Origin: an uncultured Deferribacteres bacterium
GTDB lineage: Bacteria; Zhuqueibacterota; JdFR-76; DREG01
Length of the DNA: 43,432 nucleotides
Assembly: GCA_913009825.1 (NCBI GenBank)
Contig: CAJVYQ010000040.1
Coordinates: forward strand, 1 to 43,432
Direction: 5' to 3'
Part shown: positions 4,018-41,884 of the stretch, in pieces
How the letters are laid out: each line of letters opens with the position of its first letter
Position numbering within the stretch: position 1 is the first letter of the stretch
The notes under the pieces: generated by a model
Told to the model about the DNA's origin: nothing
Database searches by the model: none
The model's input: only the letters and a program-made list of their open reading frames with translations
Made by a program: the position numbers and the translations under genes

Positions 4018-4792
4018 ATGAATATTCGATTCCATCATCTCAAATATATTTTTTTTATCTCTCTTCTTTTCCCACTGATCTTTTTCACCTGTTTGCGGGA
4101 ACAGGAGCAGGTTCAGGTGCCCGTCAATTCACAACCGGCAGATATCGATCCGTTCACAATGAATACAAAAATCGGCAGGGGCATTAATTTGGGCAACGCG
4201 CTGGAAGCTCCTAATGAAGGGGATTGGGGAGTAACTTTACAAGAATTTTATTTCGATTTGATCAAAGAAGCCGGATTCAATTCCATTCGTGTTCCGATCC
4301 GTTGGTCAGCCCATGCAAACTTGAACGCTCCGTACAAAATAGACCGGAGTTTATTCAGTCGCATCGATTGGGTTATTAATAACGGATTAAAACGAAATTT
4401 AACCGTAATCATCAATATTCATCATTATGAAGAGCTATTCAAAGACCCGGACAATCACAAAAACCGGTTCATCGGACTTTGGAGACAAATTGCGGAACAT
4501 TATAAAGATTTTCCTGCGGATTTGGTTTTTGAAATTTTAAACGAACCGCATGATAAATTGGACGCCTCCACCTGGAATAGTTTATTGAATGATGCCATCA
4601 TTGTAATTCGTGAGACAAACCCGACTAGAAACATCATTATTGGCGCGGTTTCCTGGAACAATATTGGCAGTTTAAACGACATACAGCTCCCTGAAAATGA
4701 TCGGCATATCATTGTGACTTACCATTATTACAGTCCGTTTCATTTTACCCATCAAGGTGCCGGCTGGGTTTCCGGCAGCAACGCCTGGCTAG
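4018..4792 (+). pseudogene. GH5 cellulase-like glycoside hydrolase, 5' part (interrupted by IS)
   Basis: N-terminal part of a GH5 beta-glycanase (endoglucanase type). I chose the ATG at 4018 because GGAA lies just upstream and a signal-like segment follows (FFISLLFPLIFFTC, possibly a lipoprotein signal with a non-standard Thr before Cys). GH5 landmarks: GRGINLGNALEAP, the RVPIRWSAH strand, NIHHYEELF and the acid/base Glu176 in EILNEPHDKL, then TYHYYSPFHFTHQGAGW. The frame continues 23 nt into the insertion sequence and stops at 4815. The catalytic nucleophile lies in the 3' fragment at 6865-7151, so this piece alone should be inactive. Confidence 0.9.
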
Positions 4793-4879
4793 CGGAAGTT
4801 TCCTACTTATTATAAGAAGCTTCCCATAATATATTGATAATTAAAAACAAATAGAGATTGCGTTTGTAGTGCCTATCTT

Positions 4880-6613
4880 TTAATCTGGCGCCAAACTATT
4901 TAACTCTAGCGTTTCATAGATTGCCTGTTGCCGATCAGACATTTTAGACAGAGTGCGGTAGAATTTGGCTTTTTGAGATTTGCCTGACGGCGGCAATTGT
5001 AGCGTCATAACTTCTTTTATCTCTTTTAATTCTTTTTCTAAAGTGGGGAGACCTATCTCAATACCGGCTTGCCATACCTGTCGATGTGCAAGCGAAATGA
5101 AGAGTAAAGATAGCACACAATAGAACGCGTGAATATGTAATTTTTGATCTGTCCAATGAAAATTCGGCTGCCATGAAGAAAAATGTCCTCGTTTGGTAAT
5201 TTTAAATGCAGCTTCGATTTGATATTGATGGCGATAACCCAAAATGATATCTACTGTGGACCAGTTGTCCTGATCAGTAAACAAAATAGTTTTACCAAGA
5301 CGAGTTTTTTGAATCTTGGTGAATTTTCTTGAACAAAATTTATATTCCAAATTCACTAATCCATCGTGTTCAGTGATGTCTATTTTAAAAATATCCTTCA
5401 TATATTGCTGTTTTAGTATGTCGTTTACTTGTTTTTCAATAGATTGATATGTGGAAGGAGTTCCTGGTAATGATGTACCACTATTACGAGCATCGATCCA
5501 CTTTTGTAATTTAGTCTTAAGTTCTGCGAGCTCTTTCCCGCATTTATTAATTTGTCGAAGCAACGTCTTGTTCTGTTTTTCATAAAAAGTTCGACTAAAA
5601 GTTACAACAATTGTACGTTTTTTCCCAAATGCAAATTCAGTGGTTCGGTAAGCTGTAACATTTCTAAGCCGTTCATCATTAAGAGGCTTAAAGCATTGCG
5701 AAGCAGTATCAAGTTTAGCCAGCGTTGGAAACTCGCTCAGTTTTAAAGAACCAATAAAATGATACGATGAGGCATCTACTTTTTTCTGATTTTTTTTCGA
5801 GTTGTTACCTTTATCATAAATAATTGTAATGTCTTCACAATATTTTGCTAACAGTTTATAACGGTCAATCAGTTCATCAACAAGGCTGGTGAAAGATTTG
5901 CTATCATTTGTGTTGCCTTCATAAATCTTATGGAATAGAGGAATATGAAAATCTCTTGTGACTGTCAACGCCAAATTGACTTGTCTGAGGTCATAACGTT
6001 TCTGTTTATTTTTACCTCGTTGAGCAATTTGGTTACGTTCGTTAAAAGTATCAATATAAGTGTAATAATTTGTTGTATCGTAAATCAAAAATCGCAAATC
6101 CAGATTATACAATTCAATAACATGGCGGCTAATGGATTTTTCAATCTCTGGAATCGCTGCAATGGGAACCATGTCCATGTGATCCCAGAATCTTTGCGAG
6201 CATAAGTCTGTTTTGCTGGCGCAATTATCCATTAGACGGGGCAGGCACGTTTGTCGATACCAATCCCAGCATGCCCTTTTACTAATAGGTTCAACAGTGC
6301 GGCTAATCGCCGCGATTGTAAGATATTGCCCAACTGTCAAACCTTGATTACGTTTTGGAATAAATTGATCGATTAAGTCAATGATGTTTAATTTTGTAGC
6401 TAAGTTAAAACAGGTGGCAACAATACCAAACTCGAATACAGCTATTTCTTTTGGAGCTTGAGTTGTATCTGCTTGCAGCCTGGCAGAAATAAGTTGCTCG
6501 ACAGTGCCCAGGTAGATTTGATTTACTGTGCGTGGTTTGCCGTTAATGCGTTTAGACTCGACCGCATAGTAATATTTTTTGCCTTTAATTTTTTTTGTTT
6601 TGAGATAAGCCAT
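4880..6613 (-). CDS. IS1634-family (IS4-like) DDE transposase
   Basis: 577 residues from the preferred start MAYLKTKK at 6613 (the frame extends to 6640). The N-terminus KIKGKKYYYAVESKRINGKPR is typical of IS1634-type transposases. DDE landmarks: YDTTNYYTY (first Asp), IIYDKGNNSKKN (second Asp), and YRHQYQIEAAFKITKRG (the Y-R-IE-F-K signature with the catalytic Glu). No frameshift or internal stop, so the enzyme may be active. It lies antisense to the GH5 gene it interrupts. A taggcactaca repeat sits about 25 nt upstream of the start and could be a transposase binding site or operator. Confidence 0.9.
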   Translation of the reverse strand: MAYLKTKKIKGKKYYYAVESKRINGKPRTVNQIYLGTVEQLISARLQADTTQAPKEIAVFEFGIVATCFNLATKLNIIDLIDQFIPKRNQGLTVGQYLTIAAISRTVEPISKRACWDWYRQTCLPRLMDNCASKTDLCSQRFWDHMDMVPIAAIPEIEKSISRHVIELYNLDLRFLIYDTTNYYTYIDTFNERNQIAQRGKNKQKRYDLRQVNLALTVTRDFHIPLFHKIYEGNTNDSKSFTSLVDELIDRYKLLAKYCEDITIIYDKGNNSKKNQKKVDASSYHFIGSLKLSEFPTLAKLDTASQCFKPLNDERLRNVTAYRTTEFAFGKKRTIVVTFSRTFYEKQNKTLLRQINKCGKELAELKTKLQKWIDARNSGTSLPGTPSTYQSIEKQVNDILKQQYMKDIFKIDITEHDGLVNLEYKFCSRKFTKIQKTRLGKTILFTDQDNWSTVDIILGYRHQYQIEAAFKITKRGHFSSWQPNFHWTDQKLHIHAFYCVLSLLFISLAHRQVWQAGIEIGLPTLEKELKEIKEVMTLQLPPSGKSQKAKFYRTLSKMSDRQQAIYETLELNSLAPD

Positions 6614-6860
6614 GAGTGCCTCACAATATCTGTTAGGCACTACATTACGAAATATTTAATTTAAAGTCAAGTACTTTTTTATATTTTATGCATCACATTA
6701 TCTTTATTTCAAGATAGTTAACATTGTTTCTTATTAACATTGGTTCATTAAACGTTATGACTGATTTGTTATTAATGTTAGGCACTACATATCAACGGTT
6801 GTAACTTTCTGTTTTTTATGATAATTCGTTATTCTACTTTTAATAACTAGGAAACTTCCG
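6614..6860. repeat. IS upstream end with subterminal repeats
   Basis: About 250 bp between the transposase start and the outer terminal repeat. It contains gttaggcactacat twice (about 6632-6645 and about 6777-6790); the 11-nt core is mirrored at the other end at 4865-4875. The stretch is AT-rich and otherwise empty. The pairs may be subterminal transposase binding sites, or the ends of an IS nested inside another element. Confidence 0.5.
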
Positions 6861-6864
6861 CTAG

Positions 6865-10686: not shown

Positions 10687-10791
10687 AGCGGAAGATTTCC
10701 TGAACAAATAAGATTTATTCTCTATATTCCGGCAAGTTCAAATATAACAAGCGCTATTTAAAAATCACGCCAGCTAAAAATGGAGGAAACT

Positions 10792-12744
10792 ATGGCCGTC
10801 ACTTCAAATCCGCAACAAATGACTATTAATAATCCCACTTCATCCTCTGCAGCAACAACCTTCAAATGGATCAGTACCAAAATAATCGATGATGTTTTTA
10901 CCGATGAAATATCCCTGTTCAAACCCAAATTTCAGGTTGATTACAAAGCCTATTTGCAGCGACTCTGGGAAGCGAATCCGGAAATACATGCCTTGTTGAA
11001 AAATTCACCCGATGTGGAATCCGCCCGCAATGCCCTGTACACCTATCTGGAAAAAAAGGAAAGAAATATTTTTGCCCTGGACAACGATCTGCATATTTTG
11101 GAAAAAGCAACCGTGCGGGAGGGGGTCCGGGTTTTCAAAAGCATCATCGGCCCTATCAATGAATCGCGAACAGGAGTTTCCGCTTTGCAGCATCTCCACA
11201 AATTAGCCGGAGATGAAAATGAAGAGGCAGACGATCCGGTCTCTGTGGGGTTTCTGCTGGAATTTATCAACCTGTTCAGAAGTGTCATCGGCCAATCGAA
11301 TATTTATCTGGAAAACAGCGAAGTAAAGAAACACATTCCGGATTTTCTTAAAATGCACGGCCGGAAAGCAGCGCAGATCAGAACCGGTATTCTGGACGAC
11401 CTGGGTTTAACAGCGAAAAAATATTTTAAAAAATATCCGGCCGGCCTGGATGAAGAGGTGATCACCTGGCGACAGGAAAACAAAGAGAAAATTCTCCGCT
11501 ATTTTAACGGTTCAGAAGAAGACTGGGAGGATTACCGCTGGCATCTGAAGAATGTCATTCGCGGTGCCGAACCGCTATCAGACCTGCTTGATCTCACCAA
11601 CGAACAGAAAGACGCCATCGCAAAGGCCGGAAAAAATAAAATTCCGTTCGGTATTTCGCCCTATTATCTCAGCCTGATGGATGCCAATTTATCTATCGGC
11701 TACGACCATGCGGTGCGGAGCCAGGTAATTCCGCCAAAAAATTACGTAGATCTGATGACCGAACACAAATACGACCGAAAACTGCTGCTTGATTTTATGG
11801 GTGAACACGATACTTCACCCACGGACCTGGTGACACGGCGCTACCCGCTCATCGCGATTCTGAAACCGTTCAACACCTGTGCGCAGATTTGCGTCTACTG
11901 CCAGCGGAATTGGGAAATCGATCGTGTGCTGGAACCAAAAGCCATGGCCTCCCGGAAAAAAGTCGATGAAGCCCTTACCTGGTTTGATCATCACCAGAGC
12001 ATCGGCGATGTGCTGATTACAGGCGGCGATCCATTGGTAATGAAGGATAGTCAACTGGAAAGGATACTGGAAATTCTGGCCGGAAAAAAGCAGATTTACC
12101 GCATCCGCCTGGGCACCAGAACGCCCGTGGTGCTGCCCATGCGCTGGACCGATGAATTGATGAAGATCATCGCCAGGTACCATGAACCGGGCAGAAGAGA
12201 AATATCCGTAGTCACCCATTTTGAACATTCTTACGAAATTACGCCGGAGGCCATGGCTGCAGTGCAAAAGATTCGCAGGACAGGCATCGGGGTCTACAAT
12301 CAGGTTGTGTTCACCATTGAAAATTCACGCCGGTTTGAATTGGCCAAACTACGCCTGGATTTAAAATCCATCGGCGTCGATCCCTACTACACATTCAATA
12401 TGAAGGGTAAGGAAGAGACGAAACAGTACATGGTTCCCATCGCCCGTATTTTACAGGAACGAAAAGAGGAAGCGCGCCTGCTGCCCGGACTCGACCGCAC
12501 CGACGAACCGGTATTCAACGTGCCCAGATTAGGGAAAAATCATCTGCGCGCCTGGCAGGATCACCGGCTGGTGATGATTCTGCCCAACGGCTCCCGCGTC
12601 TATGAATTTCATCCATGGGAAAAAAATATCGAAGCGGTTCCCCCTTACAATTATATCGACGTTCCTATTTACGATTATCTGGAGGAACTGGCGGCAAGAG
12701 GAGAAAACATACGTGATTATCGCACGATCTGGTATTATTACTGA
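10792..12744 (+). CDS. KamA-family radical SAM aminomutase, probable glutamate 2,3-aminomutase with long N-terminal extension
   Basis: 650 residues from ATG 10792, chosen because GGAGGA lies 5-10 nt before it; an in-frame ATG at 10780 overlaps that RBS. The radical SAM cluster motif is Cys363-x3-Cys367-x2-Cys370 (CAQICVYC). The PLP lysine is probably Lys582 in VPRLGKNHL, at the same spacing from the cluster as in lysine 2,3-aminomutase (219 versus 212 residues). Where lysine aminomutase has two Asp that bind the substrate amine (293 and 330), this protein has Lys538 (YYTFNMKG) and Asn576 (VFNVP), the pair described for glutamate 2,3-aminomutase. It should make beta-glutamate, a compatible solute. 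The first 240 or so residues are extra relative to KamA and are helical in appearance. It follows tldE by about 100 nt. Confidence 0.85.
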   Translation: MAVTSNPQQMTINNPTSSSAATTFKWISTKIIDDVFTDEISLFKPKFQVDYKAYLQRLWEANPEIHALLKNSPDVESARNALYTYLEKKERNIFALDNDLHILEKATVREGVRVFKSIIGPINESRTGVSALQHLHKLAGDENEEADDPVSVGFLLEFINLFRSVIGQSNIYLENSEVKKHIPDFLKMHGRKAAQIRTGILDDLGLTAKKYFKKYPAGLDEEVITWRQENKEKILRYFNGSEEDWEDYRWHLKNVIRGAEPLSDLLDLTNEQKDAIAKAGKNKIPFGISPYYLSLMDANLSIGYDHAVRSQVIPPKNYVDLMTEHKYDRKLLLDFMGEHDTSPTDLVTRRYPLIAILKPFNTCAQICVYCQRNWEIDRVLEPKAMASRKKVDEALTWFDHHQSIGDVLITGGDPLVMKDSQLERILEILAGKKQIYRIRLGTRTPVVLPMRWTDELMKIIARYHEPGRREISVVTHFEHSYEITPEAMAAVQKIRRTGIGVYNQVVFTIENSRRFELAKLRLDLKSIGVDPYYTFNMKGKEETKQYMVPIARILQERKEEARLLPGLDRTDEPVFNVPRLGKNHLRAWQDHRLVMILPNGSRVYEFHPWEKNIEAVPPYNYIDVPIYDYLEELAARGENIRDYRTIWYYY

Positions 12745-12820
12745 TCAGGAAACCAGAGTAGTTGCGAAAAAAGATTAATAAGGAGTAAAATTCTAATGCT
12801 TTAAAAATATTTTATTTACA

Positions 12821-12950
12821 CCTAAATTGAGCGATTCTTAGCTTGCGATAACCACCCAAAGAGTTTTGTCATTCTGTAAGAATCTTTTTAATCCTTTGCA
12901 CTAAACCAATAAGATTCCTACGGAATGACATAAGAATCGCTCAATTTAGG
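12821..12950. repeat. MITE-like element, family 1 type B, copy 1
   Basis: 130 bp with perfect inverted ends: cctaaattgagcgattctta at 12821-12840 and its complement at 12931-12950. A direct repeat TTACA flanks it on both sides (12816-12820 and 12951-12955), which looks like a 5-bp target duplication. The interior has gtcattctgtaagaatc and gattcctacggaatgac, a second inverted pair. Copy 4 at 36470 shares ends and interior. Confidence 0.8.
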
Positions 12951-12955
12951 TTACA

Positions 12956-13179
12956 ATAAGAAGGAATAGGTGTGAGACCCTTCGACTTCATCGAAATAAA
13001 AACATCGGGATTCCCCGAAAGAGTCGGACACGCGCCCAAGGTGACAGTATCGGATCGTGTCATGTCGAGGGGAGTTCTGATGGTTTTTTATTAGACCGGA
13101 ATCGAGACATCTCTTACTATTCAAACAACGGAGCCAACAATTTTAACAAACCCAAATATTGCAAAAAGGATGATTATTG
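12956..13179. other. spacer with decayed repeat text
   Basis: Between the MITE and the URO-D-family gene lies non-coding DNA containing cccttcgacttcatcg, gtgtcatgtcgaggggag and aatcgagacatctctta. Such text resembles common intergenic palindromic repeats, but I see no second full copy in this window. AGGA at 13167-13170 is the likely RBS of the next gene. Confidence 0.4.
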
Positions 13180-15138: not shown

Positions 15139-15422
15139 AAAATGGCAACGTGCCGGTTGTTATGTTTTTCATTTGTTATTCACAAAGTAGGGTACTATCT
15201 TCAAATTTCCGTTAGTTGAATGGAAACAAAGATGAGGATGAATGAATAATAGTAAAAGCAAAAAAAGACGATCCGGTAAAAGTTCATTGCAGGGGGTTTG
15301 AATCCAGGACGGTTTCTGATGAATATACATCATTGGTTAAATTGTGATGAATACGAATATTTTTAACGGTTATTCAGTTGTCTTATGCTGCGGGTTATTT
15401 GGGAAGTGGAAATAGAGTATTA

Positions 15423-15537
15423 CCCAAATTGCGCGATTGTAGGGCGATTCGCTGAATCGCCAACGGGATTTACACTAAAAAATGAAAACCGGTTTGGTAA
15501 CAACAAGCTTAAAAACAAGAGAATCGCTCAATTCAGG
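15423..15537. repeat. MITE-like element, family 1 type A, copy 2
   Basis: 115 bp with imperfect inverted ends: cccaaattgcgcgattg at 15423-15439 and gaatcgctcaattcagg at 15521-15537. The interior carries the hairpin ggcgattcgctgaatcgcc, then gggattta and an aagcttaaaaa block. It is closely similar to copy 3 at 19536. No clear target duplication remains. The 421-bp spacer around it (15139-15559) has no other recognisable content. Confidence 0.75.
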
Positions 15538-15559
15538 AAAGAGATAGTTTTAGAGCGAA

Positions 15560-19093: not shown

Positions 19094-19854
19094 TTTGACT
19101 CCTTTTTCAAATAGATCGGATTGAAAGGTTATATAACAAACCACAAAGGTTTCGGATTAGCAACGAATGTTGTTGAAAAAAGACATCATCGAAAAATGAA
19201 TGCACTCCTCCTAACCTCACCTTAACAAGGGGAGGAAAAACTTCTCCTTTCTGATGACGGGTAAAGGAAGGTTCCTTGCCGTTATTTTTACATGAACATT
19301 TTTCTTTTTTATCATTTTGATGAATTCATAAAATGCCTCCGGGATAATGATTAATATAGTATTTTTATCCATTCAATCAAACAATTTTATATTTGAATTT
19401 CAGGATGATTTTCGGTCTACCTCTCCCGGATATTTTGTTGAGCAATAAAGGGAAATTATTATGAGAAGATGATTTACCCGCCCGCATTCTTTATAAATTC
19501 TGCCGCCAAGACTCTAAGATACTAAGATTATATAACCTTAATTGAGCGATTGTAGGGCGATTCGCTGAATCGCCAATCGGATTTAGTTTAAAAATGAAAA
19601 TCCGTTTAGTAATAAAAGCAAGCTTAAAAATAAGAGAATCGCTCAATTCAGGGCATAGAAAAATCATGATTAAAACTAAGTTTCTTTCGATTTATATTCA
19701 AAAACTTACTTCCTTTTTATTTTTCAATACTTTGTGCCTTTTAGCCTTTGTGGTTATGATTTCACCGTAAAAATAAATTCTTGTATTCTATTCATAATTT
19801 CAACATATTTTAATACAATTGGCAGCTTGAGAATGTTCAATAAAATAGTGATTC
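19094..19854. other. 760-bp divergent intergenic region
   Basis: Lies between the divergent M19 and GHMP kinase genes, so it should hold promoters for both. It contains a MITE-like copy at 19536-19652. The remainder (19144-19530 and 19653-19854) is AT-rich with no reading frame of interest. No RNA gene was recognised. Confidence 0.5.
19536..19652. repeat. MITE-like element, family 1 type A, copy 3
   Basis: 117 bp, ends ccttaattgagcgattg (19536) and gaatcgctcaattcagg (19652). The interior repeats the ggcgattcgctgaatcgcc hairpin and the aagcttaaaaa block of copy 2 with few differences. The flanks do not show a clean direct repeat. Confidence 0.75.
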
Positions 19855-36398: not shown

Positions 36399-36835
36399 TA
36401 TTCCTCCGAAATTTTCGCCCACGCCTGTCTGCAATAGGCAAGAAAAACACGAAAAGATTTTAATTATCACCTAAATTGGGCGATTCAAATGTCATTCCGC
36501 AGGAATCTTGTTGGTTTACTAACAAGATTCTTTCCCGCCTGCGGTCGGGCAGGCAGAATAACAAAACTCTATGGATGGTTGTTTTAAGCAAAGAATCGCT
36601 CAATTTAACTATCAGGTATGCGCTGTATATTAACCTTAATCACGCTTCGACTTCCCTCAGCATGTCTTTCAAAATTAGTCTGAGTCCTTTCCGGCAAAGT
36701 TTATCCTGAGCTTGTCGAAGGGCTCAGGATAAACTCAGTCGAAGGCTTATCTCCCATCAGGAAACTTGTATATCTGAATAGTTAGAAACAATTTATTCAC
36801 GATCTTCGCGCAATTCGCGTGCCCAAAACAATTCT
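36399..36835. repeat. 437-bp intergenic region with MITE and stem-loop
   Basis: Contains family 1 copy 4 (36470-36609) and a perfect inverted repeat agtttatcctgagc (36698-36711) with gctcaggataaact (36722-36735) and a 10-nt loop. Just before lies cacgcttcgacttccctcag, complementary in part to actcagtcgaaggc after the loop. A ctgaatagtta motif is at 36774-36784. No gene. Confidence 0.65.
36470..36609. repeat. MITE-like element, family 1 type B, copy 4
   Basis: 140 bp. Left end cctaaattgggcgattc at 36470; right end gaatcgctcaatttaac at 36593-36609. Flanked by a TATCA direct repeat on each side (36465-36469 and 36610-36614), consistent with a 5-bp target duplication. The interior shares gtcattccgcaggaatc-type text with copy 1. 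Confidence 0.8.
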
Positions 36836-41429: not shown

Positions 41430-41488
41430 CCTTTTTTATGTATTCCGTTGTCGATTCAGCGAATCGACCTGCAATCACGTCATTAAGG
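41430..41488 (-). repeat. partial MITE-like element, family 1 type A, copy 5
   Basis: Read on the minus strand it begins ccttaatgacgtgattg and continues ggtcgattcgctgaatcgac and aacgga, matching the left half of copies 2 and 3. The right half is diverged or lost. Shows that the family also occurs truncated. Confidence 0.6.
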
Positions 41489-41884
41489 TTACGAGTAGAT
41501 AGCAACAGAATATTTACCATCATCCATTTCTGAGCTGTTTCTATCGATCTGTGCAGGAAACATAAAAAATAAATTAATGTTTTTTTATTAATAGTCAACG
41601 ATAAAAATGATTGGAATTGCATAAAATGGTTTTGATCTTTATATTGAGACCATGTAACTTTTAAGAAACTTGAATTTTTTTAGAAATTTCCTGTATTCAT
41701 TGAGACGCGCGAAATAGGCGGGTCTTGGTCACTATTCAGCTCACGTCTGTCTGACACAGGCAGAAAACACACGAAACAATCGAATGATCTCATCTAACTT
41801 TTTTCCTGTTTTTTTTTGAGTCTTGCGCGGGCTGCCTGAGTAGTGACAATACCGTAACACTTTAGTTTTTTGAACAGATCCGCT

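Follow-up and report, generated by a model that had tools for sequence, protein, structure and literature searches.

A distinct branch of long KamA-family proteins with a possible glutamate-type substrate pocket

We analysed a 43,432-nucleotide stretch of DNA (the window) from an uncultured Deferribacteres bacterium (contig CAJVYQ010000040.1), and found that a 650-residue protein encoded in it, P0001, and its long relatives are a distinct, unnamed branch of the known KamA family. At the places of the two aspartates with which lysine 2,3-aminomutase (LAM) binds lysine, P0001 has Lys538 and Asn576, a pair that is invariant across the branch. Judged from its residues, there is about an even chance that P0001 is an enzyme of the glutamate 2,3-aminomutase (EAM) type with a glutamate-like pocket.

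Results

Gene and domain layout

The likely start of the gene is ATG 10792, because a GGAGGA site lies 4 nt before it; an in-frame alternative, ATG 10780, overlaps the same site and is less likely. The features are as follows.

10782–10787, plus strand: ribosome-binding site GGAGGA, read from the sequence
10792–12744, plus strand: long KamA-family gene, 650 aa (open frame and stop; GGAGGA 4 nt upstream; TIGR00238, 331 bits)
10792–10926, plus strand: codons 1–45, N-terminal tail, predicted to be disordered and differing between relatives (pLDDT under 50; absent in the relatives of 50–55% identity)
10927–11502, plus strand: codons 46–237, predicted all-helical N-terminal domain of the clade (AlphaFold2; conserved in 29 sequences)
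11488–12534, plus strand: codons 233–581, KamA radical SAM/PLP catalytic domain (TIGR00238 match 233–581; best match of the model, 2a5h)
11878–11901, plus strand: CAQICVYC, the CxxxCxxC motif for the [4Fe-4S] cluster (C363, C367, C370; alignment to LAM)
11905–11907, plus strand: R372, equivalent to LAM R134, for the alpha-carboxylate of the substrate (alignment to LAM)
12403–12405, plus strand: K538, at the place of LAM D293 (alignment to LAM)
12517–12519, plus strand: N576, at the place of LAM D330 (alignment to LAM)
12535–12537, plus strand: K582, equivalent to the LAM PLP lysine K337 (alignment to LAM)
12538–12741, plus strand: codons 583–650, C-terminal tail that ends in IWYYY and lacks the Cys found in the LAM tail (sequence comparison)

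The three cluster cysteines are the sole cysteines of the whole protein.

P0001 is a KamA protein outside the named EAM family

P0001 scored 331 bits on the KamA family model TIGR00238 (NCBIfam cut-off, 199.2) and has the residue signature of the family, namely the CxxxCxxC motif, the arginine after it (R372) and the PLP lysine (K582). It scored below the cut-offs of the models for EAM (TIGR04368, 237 bits vs. 650), LAM (TIGR03820, 181 vs. 525, with Asp at neither 293 nor 330), arginine 2,3-aminomutase (TIGR04468, 162 vs. 600) and EpmB (TIGR03821, 126 vs. 369). By curated model, P0001 is outside the named EAM family. Of the original prediction of a glutamate 2,3-aminomutase, what stood was a KamA-type PLP/radical SAM aminomutase with Lys and Asn for the lysine-binding Asp; membership of the EAM family did not. 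The expectation that annotation pipelines would name it a lysine aminomutase was not borne out either: NCBIfam gives just "KamA family radical SAM protein", and plasmid records of long relatives read "KamA family protein".

Among equivalog models, that for EAM scored best on P0001, ahead of LAM and arginine aminomutase, which counts for the glutamate reading, but its alignment ends before N576, which counts against it. A true LAM reached 497 bits on the EAM model, against 237 for P0001, which places EAM close to LAM, with the long clade at a distance from the two. If so, the Lys/Asn pair probably arose twice, separately in EAM and in the long clade, that is, by convergence. Since P0001 is not a member of the EAM family, identifying the two as one enzyme depends on a pair of residues that most likely arose by convergence.

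The substrate pocket carries an invariant Lys/Asn pair

We numbered the KamA alignment from Clostridium subterminale LAM (PDB 2a5h), the sole solved structure related to P0001 by sequence, by way of a second LAM, nearly the whole of which aligns to 2a5h. In this alignment, C363, C367 and C370 correspond to LAM C125, C129 and C132, and the lysine-binding pair D293/D330 corresponds to K538/N576, with no Asp at either position, just as predicted. The equivalents of R134, K337 and the cluster cysteines map one to one from LAM to P0001, which counts for the glutamate reading. So does the invariance of the pair: K538 was found in 90/90, and N576 in 88/88, of the long proteins with letters at the site. 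These include two Bacteroidales proteins that are only ~30% identical, in which "FSVKGF" and "VLNLPAIGKS" supply the K and the N, respectively. Among the short KamA proteins sampled, most (28 proteins) retain both Asp, whereas a few other types of KamA have different residues; among the short and long proteins sampled, the Lys/Asn pair was seen in long proteins only.

In work attributed to Ruzicka and Frey in 2007, the characterised EAM of C. difficile is said to be marked by Lys at one specificity position and Asn at the other. The positions in P0001 were fixed against LAM, and the EAM side of this comparison is the pair attributed to that work. We found no protein above the TIGR04368 cut-off in 39 relatives, in three genomes or records behind loci, in 149 genomes of another phylum, or in the LAM-like loci of viral contigs.

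P0001 is like LAM (KamA/AblA) in predicted fold, cluster motif, the R134 and K337 equivalents and other barrel core motifs. Besides the exchanged Asp pair, it differs in reading TRRYP for THRYPDR and C-QR for C-TR after the cluster cysteine, in an extra N-terminal domain of ~190 residues, and in a C-terminal tail without Cys. With the EAM of Clostridioides difficile it shares the Lys/Asn specificity pair (EAM residues as attributed to the 2007 work), whereas it differs in scoring 237 of the 650 bits when a true LAM scores 497, and in having an extension that the EAM model lacks. In gut Bacteroidales, the long "KamA family protein" (e.g. WP_009275016.1, 704 aa) shares the K and N; it is ~30% identical to P0001 and matches it through the C-terminal end, plus the end of the extension (YPSGLDEEV...R..N), while most of its N-terminal domain has no detectable relationship. 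Two such gut loci (L065, 5617–7731; L066, 5590–7731) encode proteins of 704–713 aa that likewise have this K and N.

The source genome also encodes a second unusual KamA protein (locus L002, G000:C70:15033-15713, minus strand), in which LAM D293 is replaced by R and D330 by M or S and the PLP lysine is kept; this non-lysine pocket is also found in several relatives.

From these residues, we infer the following chemistry. The [4Fe-4S] cluster would split S-adenosylmethionine to give a 5'-deoxyadenosyl radical, which would abstract a hydrogen from C3 of the PLP-bound amino acid; K582 would carry PLP at rest, and the amino group would shift from C2 to C3 of the substrate. R372 would bind the alpha-carboxylate, and K538 and N576 would bind a side-chain carboxylate in place of lysine's ammonium. 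Because these two residues would hold such a carboxylate, the substrate would most likely be L-glutamate and the product beta-glutamate, which would likely be used as a slowly metabolised osmolyte.

The N-terminal extension is a predicted helical domain

LAM residue 11 aligns with P0001 residue 239, and hence the extension ahead of the LAM-like part is real. It is conserved across the clade, in agreement with the predicted extra domain absent from ordinary KamA and EAM proteins. In the AlphaFold2 model (pLDDT 86 and pTM 0.84 for the whole protein), residues 1–45 are disordered and residues 46–237 form a confident, all-helical fold (pLDDT mostly 87–97, with some low spots). The best match of the model among all PDB chains was 2a5h (E 4e-23; TM 0.75, scaled by target length, over 393–396 aligned columns), which counts for the glutamate reading. 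The helical domain folded alone had no PDB match at E ≤ 0.001, and none below E 0.4.

Positions conserved at ≥95% number 16 of ~192 in the helical domain and 136 of 413 in the core; this lower conservation fits a structural or regulatory part rather than a catalytic one. Sequence comparison assigns the extension to the whole long clade and not to the source genome in particular. Because the whole clade shares it, a structural role is more likely than one in specially regulating or localising P0001, as first proposed, and the domain would most likely replace subunit contacts that LAM makes otherwise. Cysteines in the C-terminal tail of LAM bind an inter-subunit zinc. The tail of P0001 lacks them, and so its oligomer should differ from that of LAM.

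Long KamA proteins are widespread and patchily distributed

At least 575 database stretches, spread over about a dozen phyla, encode a long KamA relative that matches over the full length, extension included. The best 80 were retained; among the phyla represented are Aminicenantes, Bacteroidota, Neomarinimicrobiota, KSB1, Ignavibacteria, Zixibacteria, Desulfobacterota, Planctomycetes and Acidobacteria. One orthologue (locus L093) comes from Prolixibacter denitrificans. In a catalytic-domain tree that took in no EAM, the long proteins and the Bacteroidales pair split from LAM and the other sampled KamA types (SH-aLRT 99), along a long branch for which the tool warns of long-branch effects.

The nearest protein to P0001 in this tree is from Aminicenantes, and the top match among the matches listed is 77% identical. 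Within the phylum of the window, 32 of 82 genomes have a long KamA protein, mostly 48–56% identical to P0001; a copy of the 69–81% type is present in four other genomes of the phylum only, two of which also carry the other type. All six other genomes of the window's own family and order lack the gene. This patchy distribution, together with the Aminicenantes neighbour, points to gene transfer. In one genome (locus L086, 542–4500, G039:C323), two long KamA genes stand in tandem, 19 nt apart, with K/N in both.

Gene neighbourhood and alternative substrates

Across 91 loci, long kamA mostly stands alone. No general partner gene emerged among them, and no family accounted for more than two of 76 neighbour proteins. 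A one-step product made from a central metabolite would permit a lone gene, and standing alone thus counts for the glutamate reading. In the window, TldD and PmbA protease genes precede long kamA, and a MITE-like repeat and a URO-D/MtaA-like methyltransferase gene follow it; none of these recurs next to the relatives.

MITE-like repeats, whose ends resemble CCTAAATTGAGCGATT / AATCGCTCAATTTAGG, are intergenic at 12812–12959 (directly behind kamA), 15418–15544, 19531–19659, 36554–36609 (inverted) and 41442–41491 (inverted). The window also holds an IS1634-family transposase gene (4880–6640, minus strand) within an element (4789–6864) bounded by 31-bp inverted repeats (4789–4819 and 6834–6864).

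At ten loci (for example L101, 2323–7159), nine from Bacteroidales or Bacteroidetes and one from an Aminicenantes, kamA is followed within five genes, on the same strand, by genes for a lysine-ketoglutarate reductase-like protein (AlaDh/PNT type) and saccharopine dehydrogenase; in four loci an MscS channel gene is present too. Because of these ten loci, we kept L-2-aminoadipate, from lysine breakdown via saccharopine, as a candidate substrate, within a broader, rather unlikely alternative in which P0001 is a 2,3-aminomutase for another acidic or amide amino acid (2-aminoadipate, aspartate or glutamine). The Lys/Asn pair reads "carboxylate" but leaves the chain length unfixed, which counts for this alternative. 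However, the source genome has neither gene of the pair; in 39 relatives the pair occurs both with and without long KamA (the reductase in 6/12 other genomes with long kamA vs. 7/26 without), and the near-restriction of the paired loci to Bacteroidales or Bacteroidetes may reflect inherited gene order. We rejected the pair as an obligate partner on the first two grounds. A mechanosensitive channel was likewise rejected: it is near kamA in six loci, too few, and four of these share gene order.

It is less probable still that P0001 acts on a peptide or protein residue or another bound substrate, as EpmB does on EF-P, or carries out chemistry beyond 2,3 amino migration. P0001 is very divergent from all enzymes of free amino acids, from which a long branch separates it, the helical domain could bind a partner, and the protease pair precedes kamA in the window. 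Nevertheless, the kept R134 and K337 equivalents fit a free alpha-amino acid on PLP, and beside the relatives neither the protease pair nor any precursor-like neighbour recurs. Finally, an ordinary lysine or arginine 2,3-aminomutase, to which family membership and retained catalytic residues would point, is very improbable, given that every member of the clade has K and N instead of the two lysine-binding Asp and that the scores are far under both cut-offs.

Discussion

If P0001 does act on glutamate, a role for beta-glutamate as a salt protectant is plausible but weak, the evidence for it being no more than suggestive. Beta-glutamate is known to form a static osmolyte pool (PMC1224877), and Na+ riboswitches occasionally control eam genes (PMC9337991). 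At least 19 of the best 80 named relatives bear sample names from sediment of the Kulunda soda lakes, where salt is ~100 to 400 g/L (PMC6146748). This raw count, taken without a habitat base rate, counts for the role, but the soda-lake relatives are mostly of one order, Bacteroidales, which counts against it, and the Lys/Asn pair in distant gut Bacteroidales fits poorly with a salt function. A search of the window and eight relatives for Rfam riboswitches found none, and we saw no conserved osmotic operon around long kamA among the loci compared. Searches of the relatives gave one match for a betaine transporter and none for ectoine synthase, but the latter had none in controls too.

Tentatively, and with the odds against it, the long clade may be a second, independently evolved family of glutamate 2,3-aminomutases that carries a helical domain of its own, has spread among sediment bacteria by gene transfer and is, in anoxic saline sediments, a main bacterial source of beta-glutamate. 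If this were true, the family, with its glutamate-type pocket in uncultured sediment phyla, would provide a candidate gene, and the Lys/Asn switch would have evolved twice on one fold.
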